From the NCBI RefSeq assembly GCF_000153325.1, contig NZ_CH724141.1, positions 445,185-509,184 of the forward strand: a stretch of DNA of 64,000 nt, given 5' to 3'. Under the pieces are notes generated by a model, which was given only the letters and a program-made list of their open reading frames with translations, ran no database searches and was not told the origin of the DNA. Shown here one piece after another: positions 29,349 to 56,765 of this stretch. The translations under genes were made by a program, and so were the position numbers. Positions within the stretch are counted from its first letter, which is position 1. Every line of letters starts with the position of its first letter. The stretch comes from Photobacterium sp. SKA34. Its GTDB lineage: Bacteria; Pseudomonadota; Gammaproteobacteria; Enterobacterales; Vibrionaceae.

Positions 29349-29365
29349 AGCAAAGAAAGGAGTAA

Positions 29366-29638
29366 ATGATGACCCCAGAGCTAGCAGTAAACCTATTCTC
29401 TAACGCGGTGTGGATCATCATCAATATGGTGATGGTGTTAGTAATACCAGGTTTATTAGTCGGTTTAGTGATTGCCGTTTTTCAAGCTGCGACCCAGATC
29501 AACGAGCAAACCTTAAGTTTTCTACCCCGTTTAATTATGACGTTGCTAATGGTGATTTTTGCCGGACATTGGATGCTGAGGCGCTTAATGGAGTTATTTG
29601 ATTACTTATTTCATAACATTCCGGGAATGATTGGCTAA
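29366..29638 (+). CDS. fliQ: Lateral flagellar export gate protein FliQ
   Basis: 90 residues, two hydrophobic helices (VWIIINMVMVLVIPGLLVGLVIAVFQAATQINEQTLSFLPRL... and LIMTLLMVIFAGHWML), the standard FliQ size and pattern. It starts after an AAGGAG site and its stop TAATG overlaps the fliR ATG. Confidence 0.95.
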   Translation: MMTPELAVNLFSNAVWIIINMVMVLVIPGLLVGLVIAVFQAATQINEQTLSFLPRLIMTLLMVIFAGHWMLRRLMELFDYLFHNIPGMIG

Positions 29639-30414: not shown

Positions 30415-31538
30415 GTCAGTCAACTTCACAAGATAAAACTGAAAAAGCGACCCCACAGAAGATCCGAAAAGCCCGTGAGCAGGGTCAAATCCCACGCGCA
30501 AAAGACTTCACTGCCGCCACAATTTTTATTGCGGTTATCGTTTTCTTTTATTTCCAAATTGACGTTATTTGGCAAGCGCTTAATGGCGTATTTAAATTAA
30601 ACATGACAATGTCTCGTGATGATTTACGCTCACCTTGGCTTGCCATTGAAGCGTTAGGCACAAGCTTAGCCATTATCATTCAATTACTACTGCCATTATT
30701 TGGATTAATTCTAATCACCGCTATCGCCAGCAGTTTACTGATTGGTGGTTGGCTATTCTACCCTGCAGGCATATTGCCAAAATTATCAAAAATTGATCCT
30801 ATTGCAGGGATAAAACGGATGTTTTCAACTCGTTCTTTGGTCGAACTTTTAAAATCAACACTCAAAGTGTGTGTGATTTTTCTGCTGTTATATCTCTACC
30901 TTGATACCAACTTAAGTCGCTTATTAGGTATGCAAAACTTACCGCTTAAGCAAGGCGTATCGTTAATTATGACCATTCTCTTTCATGGCATTTTGCTAAT
31001 GGGTATCGCGCTGTTTCTTTTTGGTTTAATCGATATTCCGTACCAAAAGTGGGAGCACGCCAAAGAACTAAAAATGACGAAACAAGAACTTAAGGAGGAA
31101 TTTAAAACGAATGAAGGTAATCCTGAGATCAAGCAACGCATTCGTCAAATTCAACAACAATTCGCTCGTAGACAAATTGATAAAGCAGTGCCTAAAGCTG
31201 ATGTGGTGATCGTTAATCCAACCCATTATGCCGTTGCGATTAAATACGATACTACGCTGTCTGAAGCGCTCTTTGTGGTAGCAAAAGGCATAGACGAAAC
31301 GGCAATGCATATTCAAACCATCGCCAAACAACACGATGTTGAGATCTTACATTCACCGCCATTAACGCGTGCGATTTATCACAGTACCCAAATTGAGCAA
31401 GCGATCCCAAGTCAACTCTATGTCGCCGTAGCTCATATATTAACTTATGTTTTACAGCTTAAAGCCTTTCGAAAAGGTAAAGGAAATCAACCACAAACGT
31501 TACCTAATTTTATTATCCCAAAACATTTACAGCATTAA
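30411..31538 (+). CDS. flhB: Lateral flagellar export specificity switch protein FlhB
   Basis: 375 residues. The N-terminus DKTEKATPQKIRKAREQGQIPRAKD is the family signature, followed by four membrane helices. The autocleavage motif NPTH is present (VVIVNPTHYAVAIKYD, near residue 265) in the cytoplasmic domain. It switches export from rod/hook to filament substrates together with FliK. The stop is followed 39 bases later by the flhA start. Confidence 0.96.
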   Translation: MSQSTSQDKTEKATPQKIRKAREQGQIPRAKDFTAATIFIAVIVFFYFQIDVIWQALNGVFKLNMTMSRDDLRSPWLAIEALGTSLAIIIQLLLPLFGLILITAIASSLLIGGWLFYPAGILPKLSKIDPIAGIKRMFSTRSLVELLKSTLKVCVIFLLLYLYLDTNLSRLLGMQNLPLKQGVSLIMTILFHGILLMGIALFLFGLIDIPYQKWEHAKELKMTKQELKEEFKTNEGNPEIKQRIRQIQQQFARRQIDKAVPKADVVIVNPTHYAVAIKYDTTLSEALFVVAKGIDETAMHIQTIAKQHDVEILHSPPLTRAIYHSTQIEQAIPSQLYVAVAHILTYVLQLKAFRKGKGNQPQTLPNFIIPKHLQH

Positions 31539-31577
31539 TTTCAGCGCATTTTTACCGGATTGGATGAAGGACTTCTC

Positions 31578-34717: not shown

Positions 34718-34767
34718 ATACATTGAGCAGGAAATACCTCGATAGATTGATTACAAGGAGAACTATC

Positions 34768-35637
34768 ATGGCTCTATCTATGCACACCAATTACGCATCA
34801 CTGGTTACACAAAATACACTGAGCAATACTAGCAATTTGTTAAACACAGCAATGGAACGTTTAAGTACTGGTTACCGTGTAAATTCAGCCGCAGATGATG
34901 CTGCTGGTCTTCAAATCGCAACTCGTCTAGATGCGCAAACTCGTGGCATGTCAGTAGCTATGCGTAACTCGCAAGACGGTATTTCAATGATGCAAACCGC
35001 TGAAGGTGCATTTGATGAAATGACTAACATCGTATACCGCATGAATGACCTTGCAACACAGGCATCAAACGGCACAGTATCAGCAAACGACCGAACAGCG
35101 CTTGATGCAGAATTCCAACAGCTTGGTGAAGAGCTTGCCAACGTAATGGCATCAACCAGCTTCGGTGGACAAGATATATTAACCGATGCCGGCTCATTTG
35201 GTGCAGCCGCAGTTAACTTCCAAATTGGTACTCAATCAGGTGATCAACTTGCGGTTGATGTATCTACTGAAGTACAAGCAGTGAATGCAACCATTGGTCT
35301 TGGAGGCGCATTAACTCTAGGTGATTTGACTTCTGAAGCCAACGCACAAACAGCACTAAATACTCTAACAGGTGCTAACGGTGAAGCAGGTTTACTGAAA
35401 GAAATTGGTGATGCACGTTCTGCACTGGGTGCCAACATTAACCGCCTTGACCACACCATCACTAACCTAGGCAACATGGTTGAGAATGTATCTGCAGCCA
35501 AAGGTCGTATTGTTGATGCTGACTTTGCAGTGGAATCTTCAAGCATGACTAAAAACCAAATGTTAATGCAAGCGGGTACGACTGTACTTTCACAAACTAA
35601 CCAGTTACCGGGTATGGCAATGTCACTACTTCGCTAA
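34768..35637 (+). CDS. lafA: Lateral flagellin LafA
   Basis: 289 residues from the ATG at 34768 behind AAGGAGAA (an upstream in-frame start at 34723 adds a non-flagellin leader). The conserved N-terminal D0/D1 helices ([20 protein letters not shown]..., [22 protein letters not shown]) and the C-terminal helices ([46 protein letters not shown]) are intact. The middle is short, typical of lateral flagellins. Only one flagellin gene is present in the window. A strong terminator follows. Confidence 0.96.
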
Positions 35638-35886: not shown

Positions 35887-37221
35887 ATGAATACAATTGA
35901 TCCAGCGCAAATGGCACGTAACCTTGCAACGGCAGATACACAAAAATTCCAACAACGCGCCCAATTTCAAGCAGATAAATACCAAAGCCAATTAACTGCA
36001 CTGGGAAAAGTAGAATCTGCCCTACGTGATTTTCGCTCAACGATTCAGGACATTAACAGCTCAACAACCAGTATTATTCAAAATAAAGCCACGTTGAGTG
36101 ACGACAATCATTTTACGGTTAATGCGAATGCTCAAGCGTTAAGTGGCAGTTATCAGATCTTTGTTGAACAAATTGCCAGTGCGCACCAGGTAAAAACAGG
36201 GATGCCAGCGAATTTAGATTCAACAACGTCAGTACCTAACACAGGAACACTTTCATTCACTATTGATGGTCAAACCCTTGATCTCGATCTGTCGACAATA
36301 GATAGCGATGGTGATGGGCAATCCACGATATCAGAGCTCACAACGGCGATTAATAACCACCCCGATAACCCCGGAGTCAATGCCACGCTAGTTCGTACCA
36401 GTGGGCAAACTCATTTTATGCTATCAAGCACCGAAACGGGCGTTGCAAATACTTTAAGTGTTAGCGCAAGCACAGGCACAACATGGTTTGATGATGCTTT
36501 TACTAACTTAACTGAAATAAGTGCACCACAAGACGCAGTGATTTGGCTCGGTGCTGAAACTACCGGCTTAAAACTGACCAACAGCAGTAATACATTTTCA
36601 AATGTCATTGATGGTATTGATATCACTGCAACCAAAGCACAAACCTCTGGTGACCCTGCTCTTTCCATGGCTATCGATACCGATCAAGACGCTACTTTAG
36701 AGCAAGTTAACGCTTTCATAGAAAGCTATAACAAGGTGATGAGTACCCTTGATAGTTATACCCAGACCGGATCAGCAGACACTAAACGCGGAGCACTAGC
36801 GAATGACCCTACCCTTCGATCTATTGAATCACAATTAAACAATTTATTACGTGATCAATTTGAAGGAAAAAGATTGTCAGAAATTGGGATTAGCCTTAAT
36901 CGCGAAGGCAAACTCGAAGTCGATAAAGATAGCTTTAAAAACGCACAACAAACCATGGGGGCGACCATTGAGTCCATGTTTAACGGCGACGGAAATTTAC
37001 TCGATTCATTAGAGGATTCACTCAAACCTTTTCTCCAGTTCTCTTCAGGGATGTTCACTTCTCGCAAAGAAGCATTACGGAGCAACATCGACCGTATCGA
37101 CGATAAACAAGTCGCTCTCGATCGTAAATACGACATGACTTACACCCGCTACCTCAAACAATTCACCCAGATGAATCAAATCATGACCCAAATGCAGCAA
37201 ACCCAAGGCTTATTTGGTTAA
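35887..37221 (+). CDS. lafB: Lateral flagellar filament cap protein LafB (FliD)
   Basis: 444 residues. The Gly-rich N-terminal D0 region and the central FliD domains (e.g. GSYQIFVEQIASAHQVKTG, GDPALSMAIDTDQDAT) are followed by the C-terminal FliD region (LSEIGISLNREGKLEVDKDSFK... MQQTQGLFG). FliD caps the growing filament. First gene of the late operon after a sigma-54 promoter. Confidence 0.94.
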   Translation: MNTIDPAQMARNLATADTQKFQQRAQFQADKYQSQLTALGKVESALRDFRSTIQDINSSTTSIIQNKATLSDDNHFTVNANAQALSGSYQIFVEQIASAHQVKTGMPANLDSTTSVPNTGTLSFTIDGQTLDLDLSTIDSDGDGQSTISELTTAINNHPDNPGVNATLVRTSGQTHFMLSSTETGVANTLSVSASTGTTWFDDAFTNLTEISAPQDAVIWLGAETTGLKLTNSSNTFSNVIDGIDITATKAQTSGDPALSMAIDTDQDATLEQVNAFIESYNKVMSTLDSYTQTGSADTKRGALANDPTLRSIESQLNNLLRDQFEGKRLSEIGISLNREGKLEVDKDSFKNAQQTMGATIESMFNGDGNLLDSLEDSLKPFLQFSSGMFTSRKEALRSNIDRIDDKQVALDRKYDMTYTRYLKQFTQMNQIMTQMQQTQGLFG

Positions 37222-37234
37222 AAGGAGTACAACA

Positions 37235-37630
37235 ATGTTAATGCAAGATGCAGGTTTTAATTCATATCAACAAGTCGACTTGGATGCACAAGCCGCTTCA
37301 GCTTCCCCCCATCAATTGGTTTTGATGCTGATCGATGGCTTTCAAGATGAACTTATCCGTGCACAAGGACATATCGAAGCCAAACGATTGGACGCTAAAG
37401 GGATCAGTATTAATAAATGCATGAATATATTAATTGGGCTAGATAGTGCATTAGATTTGGAACTTGGCGGCGAAGTTGCAGCCAACTTGCATGACCTTTA
37501 TGAATTTTGTCAACTTGAACTTTACCAAGCAAGTATCAAAAACGATATCTCCCACCTCGATAATGTCACTTTAGTGATGAACAACATTCGAGAAGGCTGG
37601 CAAGGGTTTGGACAGCATGCAGCCAAATAA
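37235..37630 (+). CDS. lafC: Lateral flagellin chaperone FliS (LafC)
   Basis: About 131 residues, helical. The FliS signature is visible: NSYQQVDLDAQAASASPHQLVLMLIDGFQDELIRAQGHI, then KGISINKCMNILIGLDSALDLELGGEVAANLHDLYEFC. FliS keeps flagellin unfolded for export. The ATG at 37235 follows AAGGAG. Its end overlaps the fliT-like gene by 14 bases. Confidence 0.94.
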   Translation: MLMQDAGFNSYQQVDLDAQAASASPHQLVLMLIDGFQDELIRAQGHIEAKRLDAKGISINKCMNILIGLDSALDLELGGEVAANLHDLYEFCQLELYQASIKNDISHLDNVTLVMNNIREGWQGFGQHAAK

Positions 37631-37919
37631 TTCCATATCGCTCAACATGCTCACCGCAAAAATTCAGCAAGCTGCTGAGACTGAAAATTGGTCTCGCTTA
37701 CAGCAGCTTGATGATGTGTTACGTACGCTGTTATTACCGCTAAAATCGAAACCTAAAACAGCGCAACAGCAAGTACAAATAGCAGCGTTAATGGCTGCAC
37801 ATCGCCAAGCATATCTTGCGTTACAACAAGCACAACAAATACTGCAACAAAAAATAGCAACTGCTGACAAGGAAAAAGAACGCCTTGACGCTTATCAGTC
37901 AACCAACGGTAAGGAGTGA
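37617..37919 (+). CDS. lafD: FliT-like export chaperone (LafD)
   Basis: About 100 residues from the ATG at 37617, all helical and Gln/Ala-rich (WSRLQQLDDVLRTLLLPLKS..., RQAYLALQQAQQILQQKIATAD). It has the size and position of FliT/LafD, the FliD chaperone, but the sequence is poorly conserved. The call depends on its place between fliS and fliK. Confidence 0.7.
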   Translation: MQPNNSISLNMLTAKIQQAAETENWSRLQQLDDVLRTLLLPLKSKPKTAQQQVQIAALMAAHRQAYLALQQAQQILQQKIATADKEKERLDAYQSTNGKE

Positions 37920-37922
37920 ACG

Positions 37923-39023
37923 ATGTTAATTAATACTGCGCTCACCAAAATTGACAATGTATCGTCATCATCTGATATCAAACAAGCAGGGATGCTTGAT
38001 GAACTCTCAGACGCTACATTAGAGCAAGAAGGTTTCTCGAAAACATTACAAACATTTTCCCAGCAAGGCGAAAGTACTTTACCAGAGCTGCTATTAGGCA
38101 ATGCAAATGCAACAGATCTTGAACAGCGAGACCCAACAACAATGTCGCAACATCAAGCATTGCTGCCTGAACCGCCTAGTGAAATTGAAGCCAATATAAC
38201 CACTTCAATCGTTGGTGGTTTTTCACTTGATCACCTTGCTAAACTGCCAGATATACCGACAGCTACAAGCTCACTGTCCCCTGCTTTATTTAAGCAGCAA
38301 CCAGTTCTTACGAGTGTAATACCAAGCTCTCATCGAGTGCTTGACGGTGTCAAAATATCAGCGATTAACCATGCAAACAATCCTATTAAGGAAGTAATAA
38401 CACCACTAACAATAACTTCACTACCAAGTTTAGCCTTAGAAAAAATCTCATCGTTGAACACGGTAAAAACACCGGTTTTCAATGGTGAAATGCCCGCTGC
38501 ACAATCGGTTCAAAACCTTACAGCAGTCGAACAAGTTTTATCTGCTCAGGCACAAACACAAACCAACATAACGGTTAATCGTGTGAATTGGGCTCCTATA
38601 AGTATTGATCCTCAATCTCCACAATGGGGTGAGAAAATGCTGAATATTCTTCAAGATCGCGTTTCTCTTCAAGCGACACAAAACATGCAAGAAGCACGTA
38701 TTCGTTTAGATCCACCTGATCTTGGCAAACTTGATCTGATCGTCAAAATGGATGGCGATAAGTTGAATGTTCAAATCAGTGCCAATAACAATGCAGTACG
38801 TGATGCACTTAACCAAGTATCAGAACGTTTACGTCATGATCTCCAACAGCAGTTTGTCAGTGTCGACGTCAACATCAGTCATGACAAGCAACATTCCCAT
38901 TCAGATCAAACCGCACAACATTCAACCCAAGATGATAACGATCATAGGGTAATCACTTCCTCGTCATCATCAGACGTTGAAACATCGACAACCAATGAGC
39001 ATTGGTTATCTACGCTCGCATAA
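37923..39023 (+). CDS. lafE: Lateral hook-length control protein FliK (LafE)
   Basis: 366 residues. The long low-complexity N-terminal ruler part is followed by a conserved C-terminal domain (WGEKMLNILQDRVSLQATQNMQEARIRLDPPDLGKLDLIVKMDGDKLNVQISANNNAVRDALNQVSERLRHDLQQQ) with the PxxLGxLxV-like core that contacts FlhB. Starts after AAGGAG directly behind the FliT-like gene. Confidence 0.9.
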   Translation: MLINTALTKIDNVSSSSDIKQAGMLDELSDATLEQEGFSKTLQTFSQQGESTLPELLLGNANATDLEQRDPTTMSQHQALLPEPPSEIEANITTSIVGGFSLDHLAKLPDIPTATSSLSPALFKQQPVLTSVIPSSHRVLDGVKISAINHANNPIKEVITPLTITSLPSLALEKISSLNTVKTPVFNGEMPAAQSVQNLTAVEQVLSAQAQTQTNITVNRVNWAPISIDPQSPQWGEKMLNILQDRVSLQATQNMQEARIRLDPPDLGKLDLIVKMDGDKLNVQISANNNAVRDALNQVSERLRHDLQQQFVSVDVNISHDKQHSHSDQTAQHSTQDDNDHRVITSSSSSDVETSTTNEHWLSTLA

Positions 39024-39044
39024 TTTTTCTTATTTAGGATCAGG

Positions 39045-39533
39045 ATGATGACTAATAAAAAAACGTTTACTAATCTCTTAATCATATTGCTGATAAGCAT
39101 TATTGTTGCTGTCGTCACTTTTAGCGCTACTCTATGGTATAGCCAACAAAATAAGTCCTCCGCAAATACGAACACATGGTTCACAACATTATTTCAATCT
39201 GAACCAAAAGCCACGGCACAACCTGCCTTTCATCCTCTCGATAAAGTCATCGTAAGCGTAAAAGGAGAACGTCAATCTCATTATGTGATGATTGAACTTG
39301 CCGTACAAACCCACTATCCCGAACGTATGAAACAAATCGATAGCTACATGCCGCTCGTTCGCAATGCATTACTCAAAATGTTCAGTAAGAAAAAGTACGA
39401 AGAGTTACAAAACCAGCAATCTATCGATCAATTACAGCAAGAAGTAAAACAAACCCTGACCGCTGCCTTTGCCAATACTACGTTCGCTCGTGATATCGAT
39501 GATGTGCTTTTTACCAAATACGTCATTCAATAA
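39045..39533 (+). CDS. lafF: Lateral flagellar FliL (LafF)
   Basis: 162 residues with one N-terminal membrane segment (LLIILLISIIVAVVTFSATLWY) and a periplasmic domain ending in the FliL pattern (RNALLKMFSKKKYEEL...EVKQTLTAAF...DDVLFTKYVIQ). FliL supports stator torque near MotAB. Located 21 bases after fliK and 10 before lafS. Confidence 0.9.
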   Translation: MMTNKKTFTNLLIILLISIIVAVVTFSATLWYSQQNKSSANTNTWFTTLFQSEPKATAQPAFHPLDKVIVSVKGERQSHYVMIELAVQTHYPERMKQIDSYMPLVRNALLKMFSKKKYEELQNQQSIDQLQQEVKQTLTAAFANTTFARDIDDVLFTKYVIQ

Positions 39534-39543
39534 TGAGGTGAGT

Positions 39544-40272
39544 ATGCTTGATCACAACCCAACCACTCACTATGACCTAGATACAGCTCCATCGCCGCAA
39601 CAGCATCATATTGATGAAGATTTATTAATCCGTAATCACCTTGTTTTAGTGAAGCGCGTGGTAAATCAACTCCGTCACCATACTAGCTCACATTGCAGTT
39701 ATGAAGACATGCAACAAATTGGATTAATTGGACTATTAGAAGCTGCGCGACGTTATGGAAATGTCGAGGATCCTCAATTTCCTGCTTTTGCCGTATGTCG
39801 TATTCGTGGTGCGATTTTAGACGAACTGAGACGACTAGATTGGCGTTCACGTCACACACGCCAGCAAGCTCATGAGCTTAATGACATCACCCGTGACTTA
39901 ATGAAGCAACTTGGCCGACAGCCAACAGAAGCTGAGATCACGTCTGCACTTGGCATTGATAGTGAAAATTATCAGCTACGTTTACAAGCCTGTATGGCAA
40001 GTGAAATGCAAAGCCTTGACCAACTGTTAGAGGCAGGTAAAGAGCTAGATGCACCGCTGGAATATAACGGTGTTGAACATGAACATATGCGTCGCACACT
40101 GGAATATGCTTTAACACAATTATCAAGACGAGAGCAGTTGTTGCTGACCCTGTTTTATCAACATGAGCTAAATCTGCATGAGATCGCATTAGTGCTAGAC
40201 CTTACTCCACCCCGTATTTGTCAGCTGCATAAACAAGCACTGAAATCCCTCAATCACTCTTTATCGGCTTAG
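39544..40272 (+). CDS. lafS: Lateral flagellar sigma-28 factor LafS (FliA type)
   Basis: 242 residues from the ATG at 39544 (GAGGTG ribosome site); the longer frame is spurious. Regions 2, 3 and 4 of sigma-28 are present: RNHLVLVKRVVNQLRHH, DMQQIGLIGLLEAARRYG, FPAFAVCRIRGAILDELRRLDW and the C-terminal QLSRREQLLLTLFYQHELNLHEIALVLDLTPPRICQLHKQALKSL. It transcribes late lateral genes and is held by FlgM (58332). Confidence 0.94.
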   Translation: MLDHNPTTHYDLDTAPSPQQHHIDEDLLIRNHLVLVKRVVNQLRHHTSSHCSYEDMQQIGLIGLLEAARRYGNVEDPQFPAFAVCRIRGAILDELRRLDWRSRHTRQQAHELNDITRDLMKQLGRQPTEAEITSALGIDSENYQLRLQACMASEMQSLDQLLEAGKELDAPLEYNGVEHEHMRRTLEYALTQLSRREQLLLTLFYQHELNLHEIALVLDLTPPRICQLHKQALKSLNHSLSA

Positions 40273-40281
40273 GAGCTGTAT

Positions 40282-41139
40282 ATGCAAAAGTTTATCGGTG
40301 CCATCATCATTATTATTTGTGTATTTGGTGGCTATGTTTGGGCTGGCGGAAATTTACGTGCTATTTGGCAACCTGCTGAATTGTTAATTATTGCCGGAGC
40401 AACTTTGGGATCCTTGATCATTGGTAATCCACCGCATGTATTAAAGGAAATGCGCCAACAATTTCGTCAAATACTCTCGCCTCGTAATAATGAGGCTCAG
40501 TACTACATGGAATTGATGGCATTACTACAAACCTTGCTTGATACCGTTCGTAATAAAGGTTTTAAAGCACTCGATGAGCATATTGAGTCGCCTCAAAGCA
40601 GCACAATTTTCAATCGTTACCCTCTCATTAAGAACGATCATCATGTTATTTCTTTCATTACAGACAATTTACGTTTAATGGCAATGGGACAAATGTCGCC
40701 TTATGAACTTGAAGGGTTATTAGAACAAGAAATCAGTGCAATAGAAGAAGACTTACTCTTGCCTTCGCGTTCTATGCAACGCACCGCAGAAGCCTTACCT
40801 GGATTTGGTATTTTGGCAGCGGTGATGGGGATAATTATTACCATGCAAGCCATTGATGGCTCTATCGCCATGATTGGCTATCACGTTGCAGCCGCATTAG
40901 TCGGTACTTTTCTTGGGATTTTTGGCTGTTATTGCATTCTTGATCCTGCCAGTAATGCCATGGCACAGCGTGTTAAACGCAATATGTCGGCATTTGAATG
41001 TATAAGAGCAACACTTGTCGCCTATGTCGCTAAAAAGCCGACCTTATTAGCTATTGACGCAGGAAGAAAACATATTCAGCTAGACATTAAACCTACATTT
41101 AACGAAATGGAGAAGTGGCTAACTGAACAGGAGGTATAA
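40282..41139 (+). CDS. lafT: Lateral flagellar stator protein LafT (MotA)
   Basis: 285 residues, four membrane helices, of the E. coli-type MotA length. The cytoplasmic loop has the rotor-contacting charged residues (LGS..NPPHVLKEMRQQFRQIL; ALPGFGILAAVMGIIITMQAI; AAALVGTFLGIFGCYCIL). Forms the proton channel with LafU, whose ATG overlaps its stop. Confidence 0.95.
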   Translation: MQKFIGAIIIIICVFGGYVWAGGNLRAIWQPAELLIIAGATLGSLIIGNPPHVLKEMRQQFRQILSPRNNEAQYYMELMALLQTLLDTVRNKGFKALDEHIESPQSSTIFNRYPLIKNDHHVISFITDNLRLMAMGQMSPYELEGLLEQEISAIEEDLLLPSRSMQRTAEALPGFGILAAVMGIIITMQAIDGSIAMIGYHVAAALVGTFLGIFGCYCILDPASNAMAQRVKRNMSAFECIRATLVAYVAKKPTLLAIDAGRKHIQLDIKPTFNEMEKWLTEQEV

Positions 41140-42134
41140 TGCAGAACACAGAGCAGATCGTCTTTAAACGTGCAGTAAAACGACATTCACATCAACAACA
41201 CGGTGGCGCATGGAAAGTCGCTTTTGCTGATTTTATGATTGCTCTTATGGCACTTTTTCTAGTGCTTTGGCTTTTGCAAGTTGTTGACGAAAAAGAGCGA
41301 ACAGCTATTGTTGCTTACTTTAATAACTCCAGTGTTTTTGATGAAGGTTCTGGCAATCCTTTCGATACTGACAATAGCCCATCCCCTATTGATTTTGGCG
41401 GTGATGCAGCCGATATGAGTGCTCAAAATGCCGCTATGACAATGAAGTCTATTTACAATGGTAATGGTAACGGTCCAGAAAGTGATGCTTTAATCCCTGG
41501 TAGTTTTGAAACTCAAGAACAACTTTCCATTTTAGCATCTGTTGTTGAAGAGACTGCTAAACAGGTTTCAGCACAAGGCAATATTGCAATTGATATTACT
41601 CCACAAGGATTAAGAGTTACTTTACAAGATGATTTTAAACAAAATATGTTTCATCGAGGTAATGCGAATTTAACGCCTTTTTTTGAGGATGTCTTGCTCA
41701 CTATCGCTCCTATTTTCAAACAGATAAGTAATTCAATTATTATCAGTGGTCATACTGACGCCACACAATTTAAAAATCGATTTAGTCGCCAAACAAATTG
41801 GGAACTCTCTTCGTCACGTGCAAATGTTGCGAGACAAACATTGATATCAGGCGGCATGCCAAGTGATCGAGTTTTGCAAGTCGCGGGCATGGCAGAGCGA
41901 GCGCTATTAAATAAACAAGATCCAAGTGCCAGTGAAAATCGTCGTATAGAACTATTTGTCTTGACCACATCTGCAGCTAATGTTGTAGATGCGCTATTTG
42001 GAAAAGGTGCTCCAGAAAGTATTATAAAAGCACAAGATGATACGCGTTTAAAGAAACCCGTATTGCGAAGTGACTTAATAAACCTTTCAATACCAACAAC
42101 GAAAAGTGCGCCACCAACTATGTCTAACTTTTAA
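41139..42134 (+). CDS. lafU: Lateral flagellar stator protein LafU (MotB)
   Basis: 331 residues. One N-terminal membrane helix contains the essential channel aspartate (D31 in VAFADFMIALMALFLVLW). The C-terminal OmpA/MotB peptidoglycan-binding domain is complete (IIISGHTDATQFKNRFSRQTNW, LSSSRANVARQ, ENRRIELFVL). Last gene of the lateral motor operon; MotY (broken here) would anchor this stator. Confidence 0.95.
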   Translation: MQNTEQIVFKRAVKRHSHQQHGGAWKVAFADFMIALMALFLVLWLLQVVDEKERTAIVAYFNNSSVFDEGSGNPFDTDNSPSPIDFGGDAADMSAQNAAMTMKSIYNGNGNGPESDALIPGSFETQEQLSILASVVEETAKQVSAQGNIAIDITPQGLRVTLQDDFKQNMFHRGNANLTPFFEDVLLTIAPIFKQISNSIIISGHTDATQFKNRFSRQTNWELSSSRANVARQTLISGGMPSDRVLQVAGMAERALLNKQDPSASENRRIELFVLTTSAANVVDALFGKGAPESIIKAQDDTRLKKPVLRSDLINLSIPTTKSAPPTMSNF

Positions 42135-47519: not shown

Positions 47520-48422
47520 TTACAATCGATTAAACAATGAAAGGTCGTTAATTTTCATGTAGCTTGCCTGTGTTGCCTGAAGCGCAGCCATATAATTATT
47601 TAAGCGAACCGACGCTTCACCATAGTCCAACGCTTCTAAATCATTGGTTACCGCTTCAACAAATAACTTATTATCGCCATGGCTGGTTTCCATTAAATCT
47701 AAATTATTATGACGCCCACCAATATCGGTTACTGCTGCTAATACATTATCATGCGTCGTATCTAGGGTATTTAACGTTGCTTGTAAGGTGTTATTGATAT
47801 TTACTGTCGGGGCTTGTAACTCGGTTATAGCAGCGTCAATCTGATTTAAGATATTGTTACCGCCAAGATCGAGAATTTCTTGTGAAGCAAAGTTTGCTTC
47901 CATCGTAACGCCTTTGGCTACCGTCACTACGCGCTTATCGCTATTACCTTCAAAAATATAGCCACCAGCAGGTTGTGATGTAATAGCTGGGACATCACTT
48001 TGAGTCCCAGAGAAAAGGTAATTTCCTTCTTCATCTTGGACGTTAAATGAAGACATAAAAGCATCGCGTAAACTGACTAATTTATTAGCATAACTTTCTC
48101 TATCAGCATCTGATAAAGCGCCATTTGACGCTAATAGCAAGGAGTCTCGCATGTCCTTAATTGTGTCACTTGCCGCCATTAAGTGAACTTCTTGCGATGA
48201 CAACGCTGTTTTCACATTACTAATGTTATCTTGGTACTGATTTATCGCGCTATTTTCACGGTCTAAATTCAGTAAGTTGATAGAATCTATTGGATTATCA
48301 GATAATTTTAGTAAGCGCTGACCTGTCGACATCTGCGCTAACACTTCACCTAAGCCTTGATTATTTTTTGATAAGCTGGTTAACATTAGCTGACTAAATT
48401 GCGTATCACTGACTCTCATCAT
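47520..48422 (-). CDS. flgL: Lateral hook-filament junction protein FlgL (HAP3)
   Basis: 300 residues. The N-terminus (MRVSDTQFSQLMLTSLSKNNQGLGEVLAQMSTGQRLLKLSDNPIDSINLLNLDREN) and the C-terminus (VTNDLEALDYGEASVRLNNYMAALQATQASYMKINDLSLFNRL) are typical. FlgL joins hook to filament together with FlgK. Starts seven bases after flgK; the broken flgK upstream could reduce its expression. Confidence 0.93.
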   Translation of the reverse strand: MMRVSDTQFSQLMLTSLSKNNQGLGEVLAQMSTGQRLLKLSDNPIDSINLLNLDRENSAINQYQDNISNVKTALSSQEVHLMAASDTIKDMRDSLLLASNGALSDADRESYANKLVSLRDAFMSSFNVQDEEGNYLFSGTQSDVPAITSQPAGGYIFEGNSDKRVVTVAKGVTMEANFASQEILDLGGNNILNQIDAAITELQAPTVNINNTLQATLNTLDTTHDNVLAAVTDIGGRHNNLDLMETSHGDNKLFVEAVTNDLEALDYGEASVRLNNYMAALQATQASYMKINDLSLFNRL

Positions 48423-48429: not shown

Positions 48430-49797
48430 TTACAATAATCGTAATACTGAGTCGAACAGTTCATTAGCTGTACTGATCACTTTCATATTTGCTTGATAAG
48501 CATTGGTAAATGTCATTAGGTTTGCCGCTTCTTCATCACTGTTAACCGCACTTAAATTATCTCGTGCAGCGTTGGCTTGACTAAATAAGGTTTCTGCGGC
48601 TTTTTGATCAACTGCGGCTTGTCGCGTTTCTATTGCCGTTTTACCCACCATTGAGGCAAATGCATCATTTAAAGTAACACTACCTAACCCAGTTATCGTC
48701 ATTGGTTTAGTCGACAAATCAATCAAGTCTTGTAATACATCGCTGTTGCCCGGTGCTCCGTCAGAAGAGAGAGCAAGTTCTGCGGGTTTTATCGCTGTGA
48801 TATCAAGACTGGACGCTGGCGAATTAGGATCAAATGAAAACAATGCTTGGCCTGGATCACCATTTAAATCAGTACCAGTCGCTAAAACCTGATTAAATTC
48901 AGTTGCTAGGTTTTGAGCCATCTCATCAAGGGCTTGCTGGGTTGGTTTTAAAGTATCTTTAAGGTAATTATCAAACGCCCCTAATTGTCCACCTAACTCA
49001 CCTGTAACTGCAAAAGTTTGCCCAGAAAAATCAATTTCAATGTTCTTAATAAACGGCTCATTAACTATCGGAGTAGATTTTAATTGCGCAGCATCACTGC
49101 CTAAAATCAAGGGCTGACCAGATGCTAGGGTAACTTGTAAGCTACCATCTAGTTGCTGGGTTGAACTGATTTCTACCACTTCTGAAAGTTGTTTAATTAA
49201 TACATCACGTTCATCAATAAGCTGAGAAGGATTACCACCTGTCGCTTGTGTCTCAACAACGCGATGGTTTATATCAGCAATATTGCTCATTAAACTGTTA
49301 GCATGATCAATAGACGCCGTAGCCTTGTCACTGATACGGTTACCTTGACCATGTAAAGATTCCTATAAGGTATTAAAGCGACGAGATAATGCTTTAGCTT
49401 CATTAATAATTTGCTGGCGATTAGGGGTAGATTCCGGTTTTAGCGTGGCGTCATTTAACGCCGAATATAAAGAATCAAGACCAGCACTAATATTAAAGCC
49501 CTCTCCACCTAATAAGCTTTCGAGCATCGTCATACTGTCTAAATTCGCATTGCTTGCAGCTTGTTGACTGGTTGCAGCCCATGTTTGTTTTACAATAAAT
49601 TGATCTGAAATACGACGTATACTGGCAACTTCAACACCACTTCCCGCGCTTAATATATTGTTACCTGCAAGAGCGCTCATCATAGCCTGCTGTCGACTAA
49701 ACCCTGGCGTATTAACATTAGCAACATTATGAGCAGTGACATCAAGCGCCGTTTTATTAGCATTTAACCCTGTTAAACCAATATTAATCATATTCAT
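48430..49797 (-). pseudogene. flgK: Lateral hook-filament junction protein gene flgK with an in-frame TAG
   Basis: From an ATG at 49797 (AAGGAG site) the frame encodes a normal FlgK N-terminus (MNMINIGLTGLNANKTALDV, NVANVNTPGFSRQQAM) to ALSRRFNTL, then TAG at 49365-49363. It continues in the same frame (ESLHGQGNRISDKATASID...) and through the FlgK middle to the C-terminus (AANLMTFTNAYQANMKVIST then ANELFDSVLRLL). The gap between the two open parts (72 bases) is a multiple of three. Without the stop the gene has 455 codons. CAG (Gln) is the likely ancestor. HAP1 is normally required for filament attachment, so this lesion should block lateral filaments unless suppressed. Confidence 0.88.
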
Positions 49798-49802: not shown

Positions 49803-50285
49803 TTACTGCTCCTTGTAAGATTGCAATGATTGTTGAAAAGCAGTACACGTTCGCATTGCCAATTGATTGGCTGCTTTATTGTTAACAGGCTTTAGTGTGT
49901 CTTGTTTTTCTACTTCTTTATGAGTTAATGCGGCACTATTGTGAACATCATTAAATCCTTGGCTAGGATTTAACTGTTTCATTAACATTACTTTAATACC
50001 TGTTTGCTGTTGTTTTGCCATTTCAATTGCCAACTGACCATCATAAAAATCGCGATAGACGCTCTGTTGTTTACTGGAAAATGGATTATCTTCATCAGCC
50101 AAGACATCACTGCTACTTCGCATTTTGCGTAAGACCATTTGTAAAAACATCGCTTCAAATTGTCCTGCCACCACCTCTAAACCTTGCTCATCAGATAGCG
50201 AATGTTTGATTTTCTGCAAACCATTATTATCATGATATAGAACATTATTTTTGCTCATTGCACTGATATTGTCGTCGAATTTCAT
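49803..50285 (-). CDS. flgJ: Lateral flagellar rod-cap protein FlgJ (single-domain)
   Basis: 160 residues: the N-terminal rod-capping domain only (VVAGQFEAMFLQMVLRKMRSSSDVL... FYDGQLAIEMAKQQQTGIKVMLMKQL). The C-terminal peptidoglycan hydrolase domain of E. coli-type FlgJ is absent. A separate lytic transglycosylase is encoded at 59121, at the other end of the flg genes. Sits five bases before flgK. Confidence 0.92.
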   Translation of the reverse strand: MKFDDNISAMSKNNVLYHDNNGLQKIKHSLSDEQGLEVVAGQFEAMFLQMVLRKMRSSSDVLADEDNPFSSKQQSVYRDFYDGQLAIEMAKQQQTGIKVMLMKQLNPSQGFNDVHNSAALTHKEVEKQDTLKPVNNKAANQLAMRTCTAFQQSLQSYKEQ

Positions 50286-50294
50286 CTAACTCTC

Positions 50295-51416
50295 CTAAAT
50301 CACTACCAGCTCTGCATTCAATGCGCCTGCTTCATGTAGCGCCTGCAAAATAGACATGAGATCATCAGGTGACGCACCTAAGCTGTTCACAGCATTAACT
50401 ATAGTATTAAGCTCAGTCCCTTCAGGCCAAATGTACATTTGTGCCTCATCTTGGTTAATATCAACATTAGAATTATTCACTCGTTCTGTTGTGCCTTGAC
50501 TAAAAGCATTAGGCTGGCTGATTTGATCGCTCTCTGAAATCGTTACAGTAAGGTTGCCGTGACTCACAGCCGCTTCACTAACACGGACATTTTTGCCAAC
50601 CACAACCGTTCCTGTTCTCGCATTAAACACCACCCGCGCAGCTTTTCTCCCTGTCATCACTTTTAAATCTTCCAACATCGACATAAAAGTCACCCGTTGT
50701 TGTAAGTCTTGCGGCGCACGCATTTCAACTCGACCTTTACTGATCGCAGTCGCTACTTTTGGACCGAAGGTAGCGTTTATTGCACGGGAAATATTTTTCG
50801 CTGTGGTAAAACTTGGTTGGCGTAAATTTAACGTGACTATGCTGCTGTTATTAAAGTCCGTCGGTATTTCTCGCTCTAACGTTGCACCATTAGGAATTCG
50901 CCCTGTTGTTGGTGTATTGACCGTGATTTTTGAACCACTTTGTCCTTCTGCTTTTACCCCACCAACAACCACATTACCCTGTGCAACAGCGTACACTTCA
51001 CCATCAATACCTCTAAGTGGCGTCAATAATAAAGTACCGCCACGTAGGCTTTTTGCATCACCAATAGATGAAACAACAATATTGAGTTCTTGACCAGGCC
51101 CCGCCATTGCTTCAACGGTAGCAGTAACACTCACTGAGGCGACATTTTTAAGCTTTGGATCGATCCTATCGCCAATTTGTACTCCAAATTGACGTAGCAT
51201 ATTGGTGATAGACTGGCTGGTAAATTTCACTTGATTTCGATCACCTGAGCCATCGAGACCAACCACCAAGCCATAACCCACTAACTGATTTGAGCGTATG
51301 CCTTGCACATCCACTAAATCCATCATAGGTACTGCTGTTTTAGCGCTAACGTTAAACGGCATCCAACCAAACGTCACACACAAAAAAGACAGGATAAAAT
51401 AAACCATTTTTTTCAT
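50295..51416 (-). CDS. flgI: Lateral flagellar P-ring protein FlgI
   Basis: About 373 residues from the ATG at 51416, which overlaps the flgH stop (TAATG). Signal peptide ([25 protein letters not shown]). Family motifs [43 protein letters not shown], and the end [33 protein letters not shown]. Forms the ring in the peptidoglycan layer. Confidence 0.96.
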
Positions 51417-52084
51417 TAGAAAGGCATCCATGGGCTAGTGAAAAATTGTGTTAACCAGCCTGCAGCATTGCTATCAGCCAGTGCACCTCTGCCTGAATAA
51501 GTGATCCTCGCATCACCAATACGCTGAGAAGACACTTGGTTATGACGATTAACATCATCAACCCGAACCACGCCCGTTAAGCGTATGTATTCATCCCCTT
51601 GGTTAAGTCGAATCCACTTTTCGCCACGGATCATTAACACGCCATTAGGTAATACCTTATGTACGGTGACAGTGATTGCCCCTTGCAACTTATTCCCTTG
51701 AGTACTGGCAGCTGTGCCATCAAAACCACGATCACCGCTGACACTGGCAGACAGATCATCAAAAGTTTTATTACCTAATGTCGGTGCCGCAAATTCAATA
51801 GAAGAGGATTTACCAAACTTAGTATTGGCTTTTTTGCTTGACTGCGTTTGCTCGTCCAACTCCACCGTTAATACATCGCCGACCCGATAGGCACGGCGAT
51901 CTTGAAACAAGGTCATCGAATAATTATGGCGATACAAGCTGCCATGCTTGGCTTCAGGTAAGCTGTAATCAAGATCCGGTGGCGCGAATGCAGCATCATT
52001 AGGCTCGGGCGGAATAAACTCTTCACGCACCGAACAACCTGATACAAAAGAGAGTAAACATAGCAGCATTAAAAGCGTCTTCAT
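51416..52084 (-). CDS. flgH: Lateral flagellar L-ring lipoprotein FlgH
   Basis: About 222 residues from the ATG at 52084 (AAGGAG site; a GTG at 52090 is less likely). Lipobox in [13 protein letters not shown]. Conserved FlgH parts: [31 protein letters not shown] and [66 protein letters not shown]. Forms the outer-membrane ring. Confidence 0.96.
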
Positions 52085-52093
52085 CCTCACTCC

Positions 52094-52879
52094 TTACACG
52101 GCTTGAGCGACAAATTTCAGCATGTCATCAGCGGCAGAAACAACTTTGGCATTCATTTCATAAGCGCGTTGAGTGGTGATCATATCAACCATTTCTTCAA
52201 CCACTTGCACGTTAGAACCTTCTAGCGCACCTTGCTTCAAACTGCCTGCGCCATCAATTCCTGCAATCATCTCTTGCGGCTGACCACTGGCTTGTGTCTC
52301 TTTATAAAGGTTACCGCCAACAGCTTCTAAGCCTGCTGGATTGATAAATTTCGCCAAGGTAATTTGTCCCAACTCTTGCGGCTGAGGATCCCCTGCAAGC
52401 GTCGCAGTTACAATGCCATCAACGCCAATTGATATCGTATTGGCTTCTTCAGGTATTTGAATTTGCGGTTGAAGTGGCAGACCTTGTCCATTCACCATTA
52501 AACCTTCAGAGTTAACGTGAAACTGTCCATTACGGCTAAACATTACTTCACCATCGGAATTTTCTATTTGGAAAAAGCCCGAGCCCATAACAGCAAGATC
52601 CAACTGTTGTTGGGTATTTTGTGAATTCCCTTGAGTAAACACTTTTTGTGTGCCAACTACACGCACACCACTACCAAGCTGTACTCCACTCGGCAATTGA
52701 TTTAACTGATCAACCTGCGCGCCTGGTTGACGTTGTATGCTATAAAACAAATCTTCAAAAACAACACGATCACGTTTAAACCCTACCGTATTAACATTGG
52801 CAAGGTTGTTGGAAATAGCAGTCATTTTTGTATCTTGTGCTGCCATTCCTGTTTTACTGACCCAAAGTGCTGAATGCAT
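52094..52879 (-). CDS. flgG: Lateral flagellar distal rod protein FlgG
   Basis: 261 residues, with the conserved rod N-terminus (MHSALWVSKTGMAAQDTKMTAISNNLANVNTVGFKRDRVVFEDLFY) and C-terminus (GSLKQGALEGSNVQVVEEMVDMITTQRAYEMNAKVVSAADDMLKF). Full-length. In flgBCDEFGHIJKL order, nine bases before flgH. Confidence 0.96.
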   Translation of the reverse strand: MHSALWVSKTGMAAQDTKMTAISNNLANVNTVGFKRDRVVFEDLFYSIQRQPGAQVDQLNQLPSGVQLGSGVRVVGTQKVFTQGNSQNTQQQLDLAVMGSGFFQIENSDGEVMFSRNGQFHVNSEGLMVNGQGLPLQPQIQIPEEANTISIGVDGIVTATLAGDPQPQELGQITLAKFINPAGLEAVGGNLYKETQASGQPQEMIAGIDGAGSLKQGALEGSNVQVVEEMVDMITTQRAYEMNAKVVSAADDMLKFVAQAV

Positions 52880-52914
52880 GATGACTCTCCTTGTAATTAT
52901 GTTTACCTACGTGA

Positions 52915-53646
52915 TTAACGTGGGTTCATTAAGCGGGTTCCAGCTTGTGCTAAGGTTTCTGCGGTTTTCATCATTCGCACTTGCATTTCAAAGTTACGAG
53001 TTAGCGACATCACACTAACGAGCTCATTAATCGCCGACACGTTACTGCCTTCCAAATGCCCTGCCGTCATCGCTACACTCGGGTCTTGAGCAAAAAATTG
53101 ATCATTCACTGGATGTAATAAGCCATCACTCTGTTTTTGAAGTTGATTAAACTCCGGATTAACCAACTTTAATTGTCCAACTTCAAGTTCGGCACCTCCA
53201 CCTAGCGGCACGATTGACACAACGCCCTTATCGCTAATATCAACCGCTTGATGCTCAGGTAGCACTAAGGCTTCTCCTTCTGACATCAAAGGAAAACCGT
53301 TAACTCGCATCATGCCTTGATCATCAACACGAATATTACCGGCACGGGTATAGGCTTCATTACCAGCGACAGTTTGTACGGTAAAAAAACCATCACCATT
53401 AATAGCAATATCTAGTGCGCGTCCCGTTTTGATCACATCCCCAGCATCAAAGCGTGTCGCTGCTGAGTTAGTCACAACCATGGTGCGACCATCAAACCCC
53501 GCGCCCTGTAACGGGATACTTTTCACTCGCTCCATATCCGCACGAAAACCCGCCGTATCCGCATTTGATAAGTTATTTGAGCGCACGTGCTGCGCTTTCA
53601 TCACTCGGCTTGCGCCACTTGTCGCGGTATATAAAAAACTATCCAT
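52915..53646 (-). CDS. flgF: Lateral flagellar proximal rod protein FlgF
   Basis: 243 residues, with the rod motifs MDSFLYTATSGASRVMKAQHVRSNNLSNADTAGFRADM and the C-terminal EGSNVSAINELVSVMSLTRNFEMQVRMMKTAETL. Transcribed between flgE and flgG. Confidence 0.95.
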   Translation of the reverse strand: MDSFLYTATSGASRVMKAQHVRSNNLSNADTAGFRADMERVKSIPLQGAGFDGRTMVVTNSAATRFDAGDVIKTGRALDIAINGDGFFTVQTVAGNEAYTRAGNIRVDDQGMMRVNGFPLMSEGEALVLPEHQAVDISDKGVVSIVPLGGGAELEVGQLKLVNPEFNQLQKQSDGLLHPVNDQFFAQDPSVAMTAGHLEGSNVSAINELVSVMSLTRNFEMQVRMMKTAETLAQAGTRLMNPR

Positions 53647-53658
53647 AGTTGCCTCTTA

Positions 53659-54855
53659 CTACACCGCGTTAAAGAGTGATTGAGTTAATTTGTCAGATGT
53701 TGAAATAGTCTTTGCATTTGCTTGATAGTTACGTTGAGCAGTCATTAGACTTACTAATTCACTCGTCAGGTCAACATTTGATCCCTCCAATGCGCCAGCA
53801 ACTAATCCACCTAAGGTACCCGTACTTGGCGCACCATTAACAGGAGCACCCGAGCTGAAACTTTGGATCCAAGAAGTGCCATTGGTTTTTACCAATCCTT
53901 GAGGGTTTGCAAAGTCAGCCAGCATCACCTGACCTTGCAACTGAGATTGACCATTAGTGTATGCGGCAAACACCATGCCGTTATCTTCAACACGCACACC
54001 AGCCAGCTCACCCGAGGTATACCCATTAGGTGCATTGGTACTTACACCAAAGTTCGCGCCAAACTGAGTCGTACCTGCAATATCAATGTTAATATTCGCC
54101 GCATCTGCACCTGCAGGAATGAAATTCACGGCAAAAGGTGCCGTTGGTGATTGCAATGTACCGTCGGTATTAAAAACAACATTTTGGGTTTGCGTCGGTG
54201 TAGCCGCGCCATCAACGACTACATTCACCTGCCACTCATTGGCATTAGTTTTGGTGAAATACTGTGTAACAGTGTGAGGGTTGCCTAAAGAGTCATAAAC
54301 TTTTGAGGTATAAGAAGAGTTAAAGCTGTCAGTAGCATTAGGATCGAAGGGATTAATAGCAGGATCAATAACACTAGAACGGGCATCTAAGTTAGCCACA
54401 AAAGCAAGCTCATCTGTCGCTTTTGCTGGCAGTGAAGCGGTGGTGATTTTTAAATTCCCTACCGCGCCTGCTTGTAAATTGTTATTCGCATCAACTGTAT
54501 AGCCTTGAAGCTTGGCGCCGTTATTACTAACAATATTATTATCTTTATCTGAGCCAAACACACCTGAACGTGTATATAAGGTTTGCCCAGTAAGATCTTT
54601 AGTAACAAAAAAACCGCTTCCCGAAATCGCCAAGTCTAAAGGTCGCCCTGTCCCTGTAATTGAACCTGTTTTATCAAAGTTCTGTGAAATAGCGGCAACT
54701 TCAACCCCTCCTGCTTGCATACCATTGTATACCGCTGAAAATTCAGTACGTGACTCTTTAAAGCCTGAGGTAGAAACATTGGCAATGTTATTACTAATGG
54801 TATTTAACTGAATATTGGTTGCGTCTAATCCACTTAATGCGATATCAAAACTCAT
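53659..54855 (-). CDS. flgE: Lateral flagellar hook protein FlgE
   Basis: 398 residues. The N-terminus (MSFDIALSGLDATNIQLNTISNNIANVSTSGFKESRTEF) and the C-terminus (EGSNVDLTSELVSLMTAQRNYQANAKTISTSDKLTQSLFNAV) are the hook signatures; the middle domain is of normal size. Hook assembly should be possible here even if filament attachment is not. Confidence 0.95.
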   Translation of the reverse strand: MSFDIALSGLDATNIQLNTISNNIANVSTSGFKESRTEFSAVYNGMQAGGVEVAAISQNFDKTGSITGTGRPLDLAISGSGFFVTKDLTGQTLYTRSGVFGSDKDNNIVSNNGAKLQGYTVDANNNLQAGAVGNLKITTASLPAKATDELAFVANLDARSSVIDPAINPFDPNATDSFNSSYTSKVYDSLGNPHTVTQYFTKTNANEWQVNVVVDGAATPTQTQNVVFNTDGTLQSPTAPFAVNFIPAGADAANINIDIAGTTQFGANFGVSTNAPNGYTSGELAGVRVEDNGMVFAAYTNGQSQLQGQVMLADFANPQGLVKTNGTSWIQSFSSGAPVNGAPSTGTLGGLVAGALEGSNVDLTSELVSLMTAQRNYQANAKTISTSDKLTQSLFNAV

Positions 54856-54925
54856 AACATCCTCTTTTATTTAATTCCTTGAATACTTTCGTTAATGATT
54901 TTAAAAAAACGAAAGTTAAAATGGC

Positions 54926-55606
54926 TTACTCGCCAAACTGGCTAATTTGATAGAAAGGCACTTGACCAATACCTTCAACATTCACTAAGGCAGCACCACC
55001 ATTAGAAGGAACTCGAACTTGCGAAACTTCTCCTGCTAATAAAACACTGGGTTGTGGTAAGTCTTTTTCCACTTCAATACTGATTTGATATTTCCCTTTT
55101 GCTAAGTCCAACGCGTTAGGATCAATCGTAAATTCCACATCACCTTTATTTTTTGGACCTAAGGGCATAATTTTCTGATTGCCTAATTGGTCTGTTAAAA
55201 CTATCGAAACCGTGTTCGATGCATGATTTAGTTCAATCCGCCCTTTTTGTTGTTTATCGTCGGCTAGTTCGATTTCAGAGCCTTCAACATAAACAGTTTG
55301 TCCAACTAACCCTGCCGTCGACAAAACTTGCATGTTATCCAGTAAAACCATACTGTTTTGCATCAACTTGGCCATATTCTCTGTACTTTCAACCTGAGAA
55401 AATTGCGCCAATTGCCCGACATACTCAGTACCATCAAGTGGATTTAACGGGTCTTGGTTTTGGATTTGTGCCACCATCAAATTAATAAATTCATTTTTTA
55501 ATGAGTTAGCATCGTTAGCATTATTTGGGTTACCGGCTACTGACATATTGGTAGATTCAATCGCAGGCACATCCGTACTAAGTGCATTAAATTGTGCAAT
55601 GGTCAT
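54926..55606 (-). CDS. flgD: Lateral flagellar hook-cap (scaffold) protein FlgD
   Basis: 226 residues. N-terminal motif LKNEFINLMVAQIQNQDPLNPLDGTEYVGQLAQFSQVEST followed by the FlgD beta domain. Its ATG overlaps the flgC stop (ATGA). It caps the growing hook and is later released. Confidence 0.95.
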   Translation of the reverse strand: MTIAQFNALSTDVPAIESTNMSVAGNPNNANDANSLKNEFINLMVAQIQNQDPLNPLDGTEYVGQLAQFSQVESTENMAKLMQNSMVLLDNMQVLSTAGLVGQTVYVEGSEIELADDKQQKGRIELNHASNTVSIVLTDQLGNQKIMPLGPKNKGDVEFTIDPNALDLAKGKYQISIEVEKDLPQPSVLLAGEVSQVRVPSNGGAALVNVEGIGQVPFYQISQFGE

Positions 55607-56040
55607 CAGTTACCCTCACCTAAACGAAGCAACCCTTGCTGCATACTTTTTACATTACTCAACACTTCAACATTGGTTTCAAAACTGCGTGTTGCTGACA
55701 TCATGTCAGCCATTTCTGCAACTACATCTATATCAGGGTAATAAACATACCCCTCTTCATTGGCGAGTGGGTTACTCGGTTCAAAACGTTTTTCCGCGTC
55801 TCCAGCATGTTGTACGACATCCATAATGCGTACTTCAGCACTTGGGTAATCTGCTTGTTCTCCTGTTAATTGAGTTTTGTTGTAAACTGTAGCAAATACA
55901 GGTTTTAACGCCTTGTAAGCATCGTCGGGATTGGCTGCAACAGCATCGGCATTCGCTAGATTACTAGCGACAGTATTTAAACGTATGGTTTGTGCATTCA
56001 TTGCTGAACCCGCAATGGAATAAATATCAGTAAATGCCAT
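55606..56040 (-). CDS. flgC: Lateral flagellar rod protein FlgC
   Basis: 144 residues, with FlgC motifs MAFTDIYSIAGSAMNAQTIRLNTVASNLANADAV, a central SNPLANEEGYVYYPDIDVVAEMADMMSATRSFETNVEVLSNVKS. Two bases after flgB. Confidence 0.95.
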   Translation of the reverse strand: MAFTDIYSIAGSAMNAQTIRLNTVASNLANADAVAANPDDAYKALKPVFATVYNKTQLTGEQADYPSAEVRIMDVVQHAGDAEKRFEPSNPLANEEGYVYYPDIDVVAEMADMMSATRSFETNVEVLSNVKSMQQGLLRLGEGN

Positions 56041-56042
56041 TG

Positions 56043-56405
56043 TTAACGTCCTTTAATTACGGCAGCTAAACCCTTAAACTTCATATTCATAAACGTTAAG
56101 CTGCTCTGAAAATCCATGTTATTTTTAGTAAACTTTGCTTGCTCGACACTAAGCTCTACCGTATTGCCATCTTTCGAGTTTTGGTAAGGCACAGCGTAAC
56201 CATCAGACACCACCAGTTGTGTCGGAGCTTTTTGTACTTTTCCAACCCCTATTTGACTTGCGATGGCATCAAAGCGAATATCTTTTGCTAGGTATCCAGG
56301 GGTATCTACATTTGCTAAATTACTGGCAAGCACCTTGGCTCTTTGCACTCGAAAATCGAGCGTTTGAGGATGAACACCGAGTGCATTTTCAAAACTTATT
56401 GACAT
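56043..56405 (-). CDS. flgB: Lateral flagellar rod protein FlgB
   Basis: About 120 residues from the ATG at 56405 (AAAGGAG site); the longer frame to 56492 is spurious. Starts MSISFENALGVHPQTLDFRVQRAKVLASNLANVDTPGYLAKDI and ends SSLTFMNMKFKGLAAVIKGR. First gene of the flgB-L operon, behind a sigma-54-like element. Confidence 0.94.
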   Translation of the reverse strand: MSISFENALGVHPQTLDFRVQRAKVLASNLANVDTPGYLAKDIRFDAIASQIGVGKVQKAPTQLVVSDGYAVPYQNSKDGNTVELSVEQAKFTKNNMDFQSSLTFMNMKFKGLAAVIKGR

Positions 56406-56453
56406 TAACCACTCCTTTGACAGTACAACCAAGATTGTAATAGAGAGGATTAA

Positions 56454-56469
56454 TCCAAAATACGTGCCA
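56454..56469 (-). promoter_or_regulatory. Sigma-54-like promoter of flgBCDEFGHIJKL
   Basis: Minus strand TGGCACGTATTTTGGA (56469-56454): the -24 box TGGCAC is perfect and the spacing is exact, but the -12 box is TTGG instead of TTGC. It ends 49 bases before the flgB ATG (56405). Confidence 0.55.
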
Positions 56470-56765
56470 AAACATTTAGCATATATTATCAATAGCTTAC
56501 GTTTAAATACGGAAAGTTAACTTCCCATAGGGGAAATAATCGGAAAGGAAATAACACGAATTAGCCAACTAAATGTAATTGTTCCTCTGATACTATTAAT
56601 GAATCCATTCAAAACTTAATAGTAATTTTTATTTTTTAATATCTATATCTCAACATTTAAACAAAAGAAATATATAGGCAAACCTGTATAAAAAGCTTGA
56701 CTACATACTAGGTAAGAAGTTATTTTCCGCTTTCAAATTACTCCCCCACATAGAAGTATGAGTAT

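Follow-up and report, generated by a model that had tools for sequence, protein, structure and literature searches.

In Vibrio alginolyticus VIO5, a stop at codon 64 of motY2 is held responsible for the loss of the lateral flagella, and the authors of that study suggest that the stop affects the translation of lafK (PMC10956519). MotY is needed by the lateral stator of V. parahaemolyticus, as stated in PMC4960245. FlgK makes up the junction layer on top of the hook, in 11 copies in Salmonella (PMC12221982), and a Salmonella flgK deletion leads to secretion of flagellin monomers (PMC5386592). A table of V. fischeri motility mutants gives 0 in its flgK row and 56 in its flgL row (PMC3948606). 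In S. piezotolerans, which has two FlgL proteins, neither is reported to compensate for the other (PMC5178100). For the P. angustum/leiognathi clade, our search of the open-licence literature found no paper dedicated to lateral flagella.

Here, we describe a 64,000-nucleotide stretch of Photobacterium sp. SKA34 (henceforth the window; G000:C7:445185-509184), which carries a lateral flagellar gene set in which both flgK and motY are interrupted by in-frame stop codons. We consider it very likely that the lateral flagellum of this strain has recently been lost through at least two nonsense mutations, a TAG at codon 145 of flgK and a TAA at codon 39 of motY. The window lies well inside a 1.72-Mb contig of a 4.99-Mb genome (18 contigs, 99.97 percent completeness). 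Its flgK shares 92.2 percent DNA identity with that of Photobacterium sp. Ph5, 91.4 percent with both P. angustum ATCC 25915 and Photobacterium sp. GB-56, and 84.8 percent with P. lucens, which places the genome in the P. angustum/leiognathi clade. At the protein level, the top identity is 92 percent both for the FlgK piece (among the matches listed, the best 120 of 509 proteins) and for the MotY piece (likewise, the best 120 of 399), in comparisons against 90 percent clusters that hide their individual members.

Results and Discussion

An Amber Codon Interrupts Lateral flgK

The flgK region contains the following features:

48430..49797, minus strand: lateral flgK, interrupted; Pfam domains; six clade relatives have the 455-codon frame uninterrupted
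49363..49365, minus strand: in-frame TAG at flgK codon 145; of 109 aligned FlgK loci, none but this one has a stop inside
47520..48422, minus strand: lateral flgL, open; TIGR02550 above cut-off; start 7 bases past the flgK end

A first-pass annotation of this DNA had placed an amber stop inside lateral flgK, in the frame read from 49797 on the minus strand, with the FlgK sequence and C-terminus preserved beyond it and FlgL read downstream, and our analysis bears out each of these points. The TAG occupies 49365-49363, and the same frame then continues for 310 further codons and reaches its normal end at 48430 without meeting another stop. Pfam assigns Flg_bb_rod and FlgK_D1 profile positions 1-56 to the part before the TAG, and FlgK_D1 positions 59-233 and Flg_bbr_C to the part beyond it, such that the TAG splits the FlgK_D1 match at profile positions 56/59. 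The N-terminal rod motif, FlgK_D1, and Flg_bbr_C are hence all present in a frame of about 455 codons, which sits between a flgJ-like frame (50285-49803) and flgL (48422-47520, with its family model above cut-off); what is absent is an uninterrupted reading frame. When FlgK of an intact relative is aligned with solved FlgK chains (9go6), the alignment covers residues 2-323 and 339-453, so the stop at codon 145 falls early in the first aligned stretch.

We note that the gene directly downstream of flgL (46456-47505, minus strand, 349 codons) is matched by neither NCBIfam nor Pfam at 1e-3. In Plesiomonas, a published table places a Maf-5 of 349 residues next to the lateral FlgL (PMC4481668), which this gene resembles in place and length only.

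A FlgK of the matching length class occurs in 37 of 52 Photobacterium genomes (our own included, counted from rows), and the window's is the only one of the 37 with an internal stop, which places this stop beyond chance. Codon 145 was aligned across 109 usable loci out of 110, with some genomes entered twice and the window's own locus included, and reads serine in 44, threonine in 31, asparagine in 24, alanine in 3, aspartate, glycine, and tyrosine in 2 each, and a stop in 1. The six clade relatives, in all of which flgK is open, share one common serine codon that differs from the TAG of the window at two bases, so that at least two substitutions separate the window from its relatives at this position. 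The earlier expectation that relatives would carry CAG (glutamine) here did not hold, as glutamine is found in none of the 109 loci, and with the relatives' serine codon two bases away, a single-step history from CAG to TAG is not right.

A Second Stop Lies in Lateral motY

The first-pass annotation attributed the predicted defect to the nonsense lesion in lateral flgK; that lesion stands, but the interpretation was incomplete, as lateral motY, which heads another gene row, also contains a stop:

26010..26906, minus strand: lateral motY, interrupted; MotY_N and OmpA past the stop; six clade relatives have the 301-codon frame uninterrupted
26790..26792, minus strand: in-frame TAA at motY codon 39; frame read from 26906
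24661..26010, minus strand: lafK-type sigma-54 activator, open; Pfam Sigma54_activat; one-base overlap between its start and the end of motY

The TAA lies past a hydrophobic leader (judged from the sequence by eye) and about a dozen further residues, and this leader is likely a signal peptide. Beyond the stop, a 250-residue open reading frame that begins with TTG at 26762 retains MotY_N, from profile position 21, together with OmpA, so that signal peptide, MotY_N, and OmpA do not share a single uninterrupted frame, the stop at codon 39 coming between them. The one-base overlap of motY with lafK is present both in the window and in the relative G003. Since a Shine-Dalgarno-like stretch belonging to lafK itself is also present, any silencing of lafK by the motY stop is uncertain.

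Independent motY stops were considered for G012, G037, and G038, in each of which one TGA had been flagged, and were rejected, as after realignment none fell within the matched 241-244 query residues. Lateral flgK and motY are both open in P. angustum ATCC 25915. In a further relative, G021 (L203), motY is matched at C1:431 kb and flgK at C1:1325 kb, and the lateral set thus seems to be split in that genome.

The Remaining Lateral Genes Compared Are Open

The other parts of the lateral gene set are as follows:

18923..24648, minus strand: remaining genes of the motY-lafK row, open; a family model names fliF; fliE, fliG, fliH, fliI, and fliJ by order and size only
49803..56492, minus strand: rest of the flgB-flgJ row, open; flgC, flgE, and flgI models above cut-off, flgJ below, others by order and size
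27361..33671, plus strand: fliM-flhA row of the lateral set, open; family models name flhB and flhA, order and size the others
34723..35637, plus strand: lafA, lateral flagellin, open; NF038071 above cut-off
35887..42134, plus strand: fliD-lafU row, open; sigma-28 type factor above cut-off, FliD and LafU models below

Family models score above their cut-offs for LafA, the sigma-28 type factor, FlgL, FlgE, FlhB, FlhA, FliF, FlgI, and FlgC, and Pfam recovers the sigma-54 activator, MotY, and FlgA; the models for FliD, LafU, and FlgJ fall below cut-off, and the other lateral names rest on order and size. With LafA, a LafK-type activator, a sigma-28 type factor, MotY, and a structural set (some of it named by order and size only), the window carries a laf system, and a separate polar system is indicated by a second FlgK on another contig.

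We examined 36 lateral genes in the window, each of which has an open counterpart in G003. A comparison of 75 frames of G003 with the window left 59 matched and 16 unmatched, and of 67 frames of the second relative, G021, 35 were likewise unmatched; flgA, matched by G003 only in part, and the unmatched flgM and flgN lie outside the comparison. The G003 frames flagged seven in-frame stops, of which two are mid-gene by position, namely those in flgK and lateral motY; among the G003-matched frames of the window, there are no others. Of the flagged stops not kept, one, at residue 51 of a 95-residue open reading frame, is antisense to the gene at 2618-3928, and those at 242/243, 5/153, 15/113, and 8/277 are start or end differences.

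As a control, we used 75 G003 frames of at least 100 codons from the polar region, of which 69 were matched in the window's genome, none with a stop and two shorter at the start. Two stops in 36 lateral genes do not differ significantly from none in 69 polar-region frames (Fisher p 0.12), so that a selective decay of the lateral system is suggested by the function of the genes hit and is not proven by these counts.

Several other observations concern these regions. The gene at 33704-34528 (plus strand), between flhA and lafA, has an EAL-domain match below the Pfam cut-off (27.6 vs 31.3 bits). The synonymous divergence dS of fliD (35887-37221, plus strand) is 0.84 to G003 and 0.14 to G002, and that of lafU (41139-42134, plus strand) is 1.4 to G003, with 0.14 for its neighbor, a mosaic that looks as if stretches had been exchanged. 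On the polar side, the FlgK frames of the clade (C4:167.9-170.2 kb in the window's genome; L196, L209, and L210) span 780-781 codons, and the full-length matches among the other polar-type FlgK rows listed span 631-722 codons.

Both Lesions Are Probably Young

Past the flgK stop, the codon changes private to the window comprise 4 nonsynonymous and 17 synonymous ones, as compared to 6 and 47, respectively, when summed over six relatives, and relaxed selection is not detected in this comparison (Fisher p 0.46). In the case of motY, the private changes past the stop comprise 4 nonsynonymous and 6 synonymous ones, against 3 and 13 across the whole gene in four relatives, and relaxation is again not detected (Fisher p 0.37); these motY counts omit two of the six clade relatives, both of them open, namely L198 (other start and length) and L201 of G002 (anchor missing). 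The flgK dN/dS is 0.067 between the window and G003 and 0.057 between the window and G021, and among relatives it is 0.082 for G003-G021 and 0.292 for G003-G002, the last from very few changes. Rough age bounds, which assume a neutral N/S of 3.0, are at most 0.14 of the private branch for the flgK lesion and at most 0.40 for that of motY. As neither gene shows relaxation, both lesions are probably recent, judging from codon changes, and the first-pass claim of a recent flgK lesion holds at this strength.

We note, however, that undetected relaxation is compatible with a recent loss and equally with genes in use or with errors. The stops are read from the assembled sequence, and selection looks intact downstream of both, as would also be the case for a whole lateral system in which one or both stops arose from an error in sequencing or assembly. 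Two separate stops within one functional system, well inside a long contig, argue against such errors, as does the absence of any stop in the 69 compared polar-region frames. The flgK codon is, moreover, two bases away from that of the relatives, even if a true silent change combined with one error could produce this. Taking these points together, we regard sequencing or assembly error as improbable and retain recent loss as the preferred explanation.

No Suppressor tRNA Was Found

Constraint beyond the flgK TAG could also be maintained if readthrough yielded a little FlgK, sufficient for a few junctions, and the number of FlgK copies required is indeed small (the Salmonella structure has 11; PMC12221982). 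The first-pass annotation had named a high-fidelity amber-suppressor tRNA as one observation that would speak against a lesion. ARAGORN typing of 32 genome stretches gave 137 tRNAs, none with a CTA or TTA anticodon. Behind these stretches stands an Rfam tRNA search in which 150 of 387 candidates were scored, with 136 matches, and whole-genome scans for anticodon-loop patterns were therefore added. The CTA-type scan gave nine hits, which were all run, one being a tRNA-Arg(tct) and eight no tRNA. The TTA-type scan gave 46 hits, of which 30 with loci went through ARAGORN and showed no TTA anticodon; the other 16, without a locus, were not singly run, one of them lying inside an ARAGORN-typed stretch. 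We thus reject amber or ochre suppression on the basis of both the typing and the pattern scans.

With respect to stop usage, TAG terminates 5 of 55 open reading frames of at least 150 codons in the window, presumably including the flgK TAG itself, versus 7 of 60 in the polar region. Programmed readthrough is not indicated either, as there is no suppressor tRNA by these searches and the stop occurs in 1 of 109 aligned loci and in no relative examined. In addition, motY is also interrupted, and by a stop of a different kind (TAA rather than TAG), and a recent origin of the lesion explains the constraint past the TAG equally well. We therefore give readthrough very little credence as compared to a true loss of function.

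We also observe that, in the window's genome, the starts of C5 and C18 (L176 and L195) have tRNA matches at identical offsets (906-979 and 1027-1099), and that there are long tandem tRNA rows, for example at C4:1-2200.

Predicted Consequences for the Lateral Flagellum

Under recent loss, the 144-residue FlgK piece would lack most of D1 and the C-terminal part, and no hook-filament junction would be expected to form. The polar FlgK is unlikely to substitute for it, as polar and lateral FlgK in this genome share about 29 percent identity and the FlgL pair of S. piezotolerans does not cross-compensate. The MotY product would consist of the signal peptide and about a dozen residues, and the lateral motor would be predicted to fail. 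Given that motY lies ahead of lafK and overlaps it, less of the activator may be translated as well, leaving much of the lateral regulon silent. Few or no lateral filaments and no swarming would result, with swimming kept, and on these sequence grounds the strain is probably one that does not swarm.

The fate of the lateral flagellin is less clear-cut. The first-pass annotation suggested that LafA may be exported without filaments being built; with the motY stop upstream of lafK, this becomes just one possibility, and LafA is perhaps hardly made. The likeliest outcome is one of these two, export without filaments or near-absence of LafA, and we favor neither. It is possible, if tentatively so, that the flgK lesion is the decisive one, with the motY stop sparing lafK expression such that LafA is produced and exported without being assembled into a filament; this reading is one version of our preferred explanation, with which its probability overlaps. 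The Shine-Dalgarno-like stretch of lafK, the open lafA, sigma-28 type factor, and export genes, and the flagellin monomers secreted by the Salmonella flgK deletion (PMC5386592) are all in line with it, whereas VIO5, with its motY2 stop, is without lateral flagella, for which its authors suggest reduced lafK translation (PMC10956519).

We can also envisage a naturally arisen equivalent of VIO5, in which the motY stop came first, lowering lafK translation and silencing the lateral regulon, after which flgK decayed unselected; this order is a guess that we consider doubtful, and the codon counts leave the order of the two stops undecided. Were it correct, the loss of a second flagellum could begin at the motY-lafK head of the regulon.

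Whichever of these versions applies, a conspicuous lesion is not necessarily the only one that matters, as the motY stop alters the phenotype that would be predicted from flgK. As an ordinary loss of function, the case mainly warns against inferring swarming from the mere presence of the genes.

Comparison with Known Systems

The window appears to capture a second flagellar system at an early stage of decay, with two stops, a gene set that is otherwise open, and a polar region that is intact in the frames compared. A close likeness is to VIO5, which also has a polar flagellum and an early stop in lateral motY, where the lafK operon begins (PMC10956519). VIO5, however, was obtained with EMS in the laboratory and was observed to lack lateral flagella (PMC10956519), whereas the window is part of a genome sequence and has a second stop, in flgK.

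The Flag-2 locus of E. coli 042 is similar in being a near-complete secondary locus, probably inactivated by a lesion, next to an intact primary system, but there a single gene is affected, by a frame shift in the rod gene lfgC, rather than two by nonsense lesions in flgK and motY (PMC2808357). Across the Enterobacterales, Flag-2 has likewise been lost as a second flagellum, and repeatedly so, through deletions and phage insertion where the window has point lesions (PMC6993521). Finally, lateral flagella are already described as variable within one Photobacterium species, P. profundum, of which strain 3TCK lacks the whole lateral cluster, unlike the window, in which the cluster is retained (PMC1239915).
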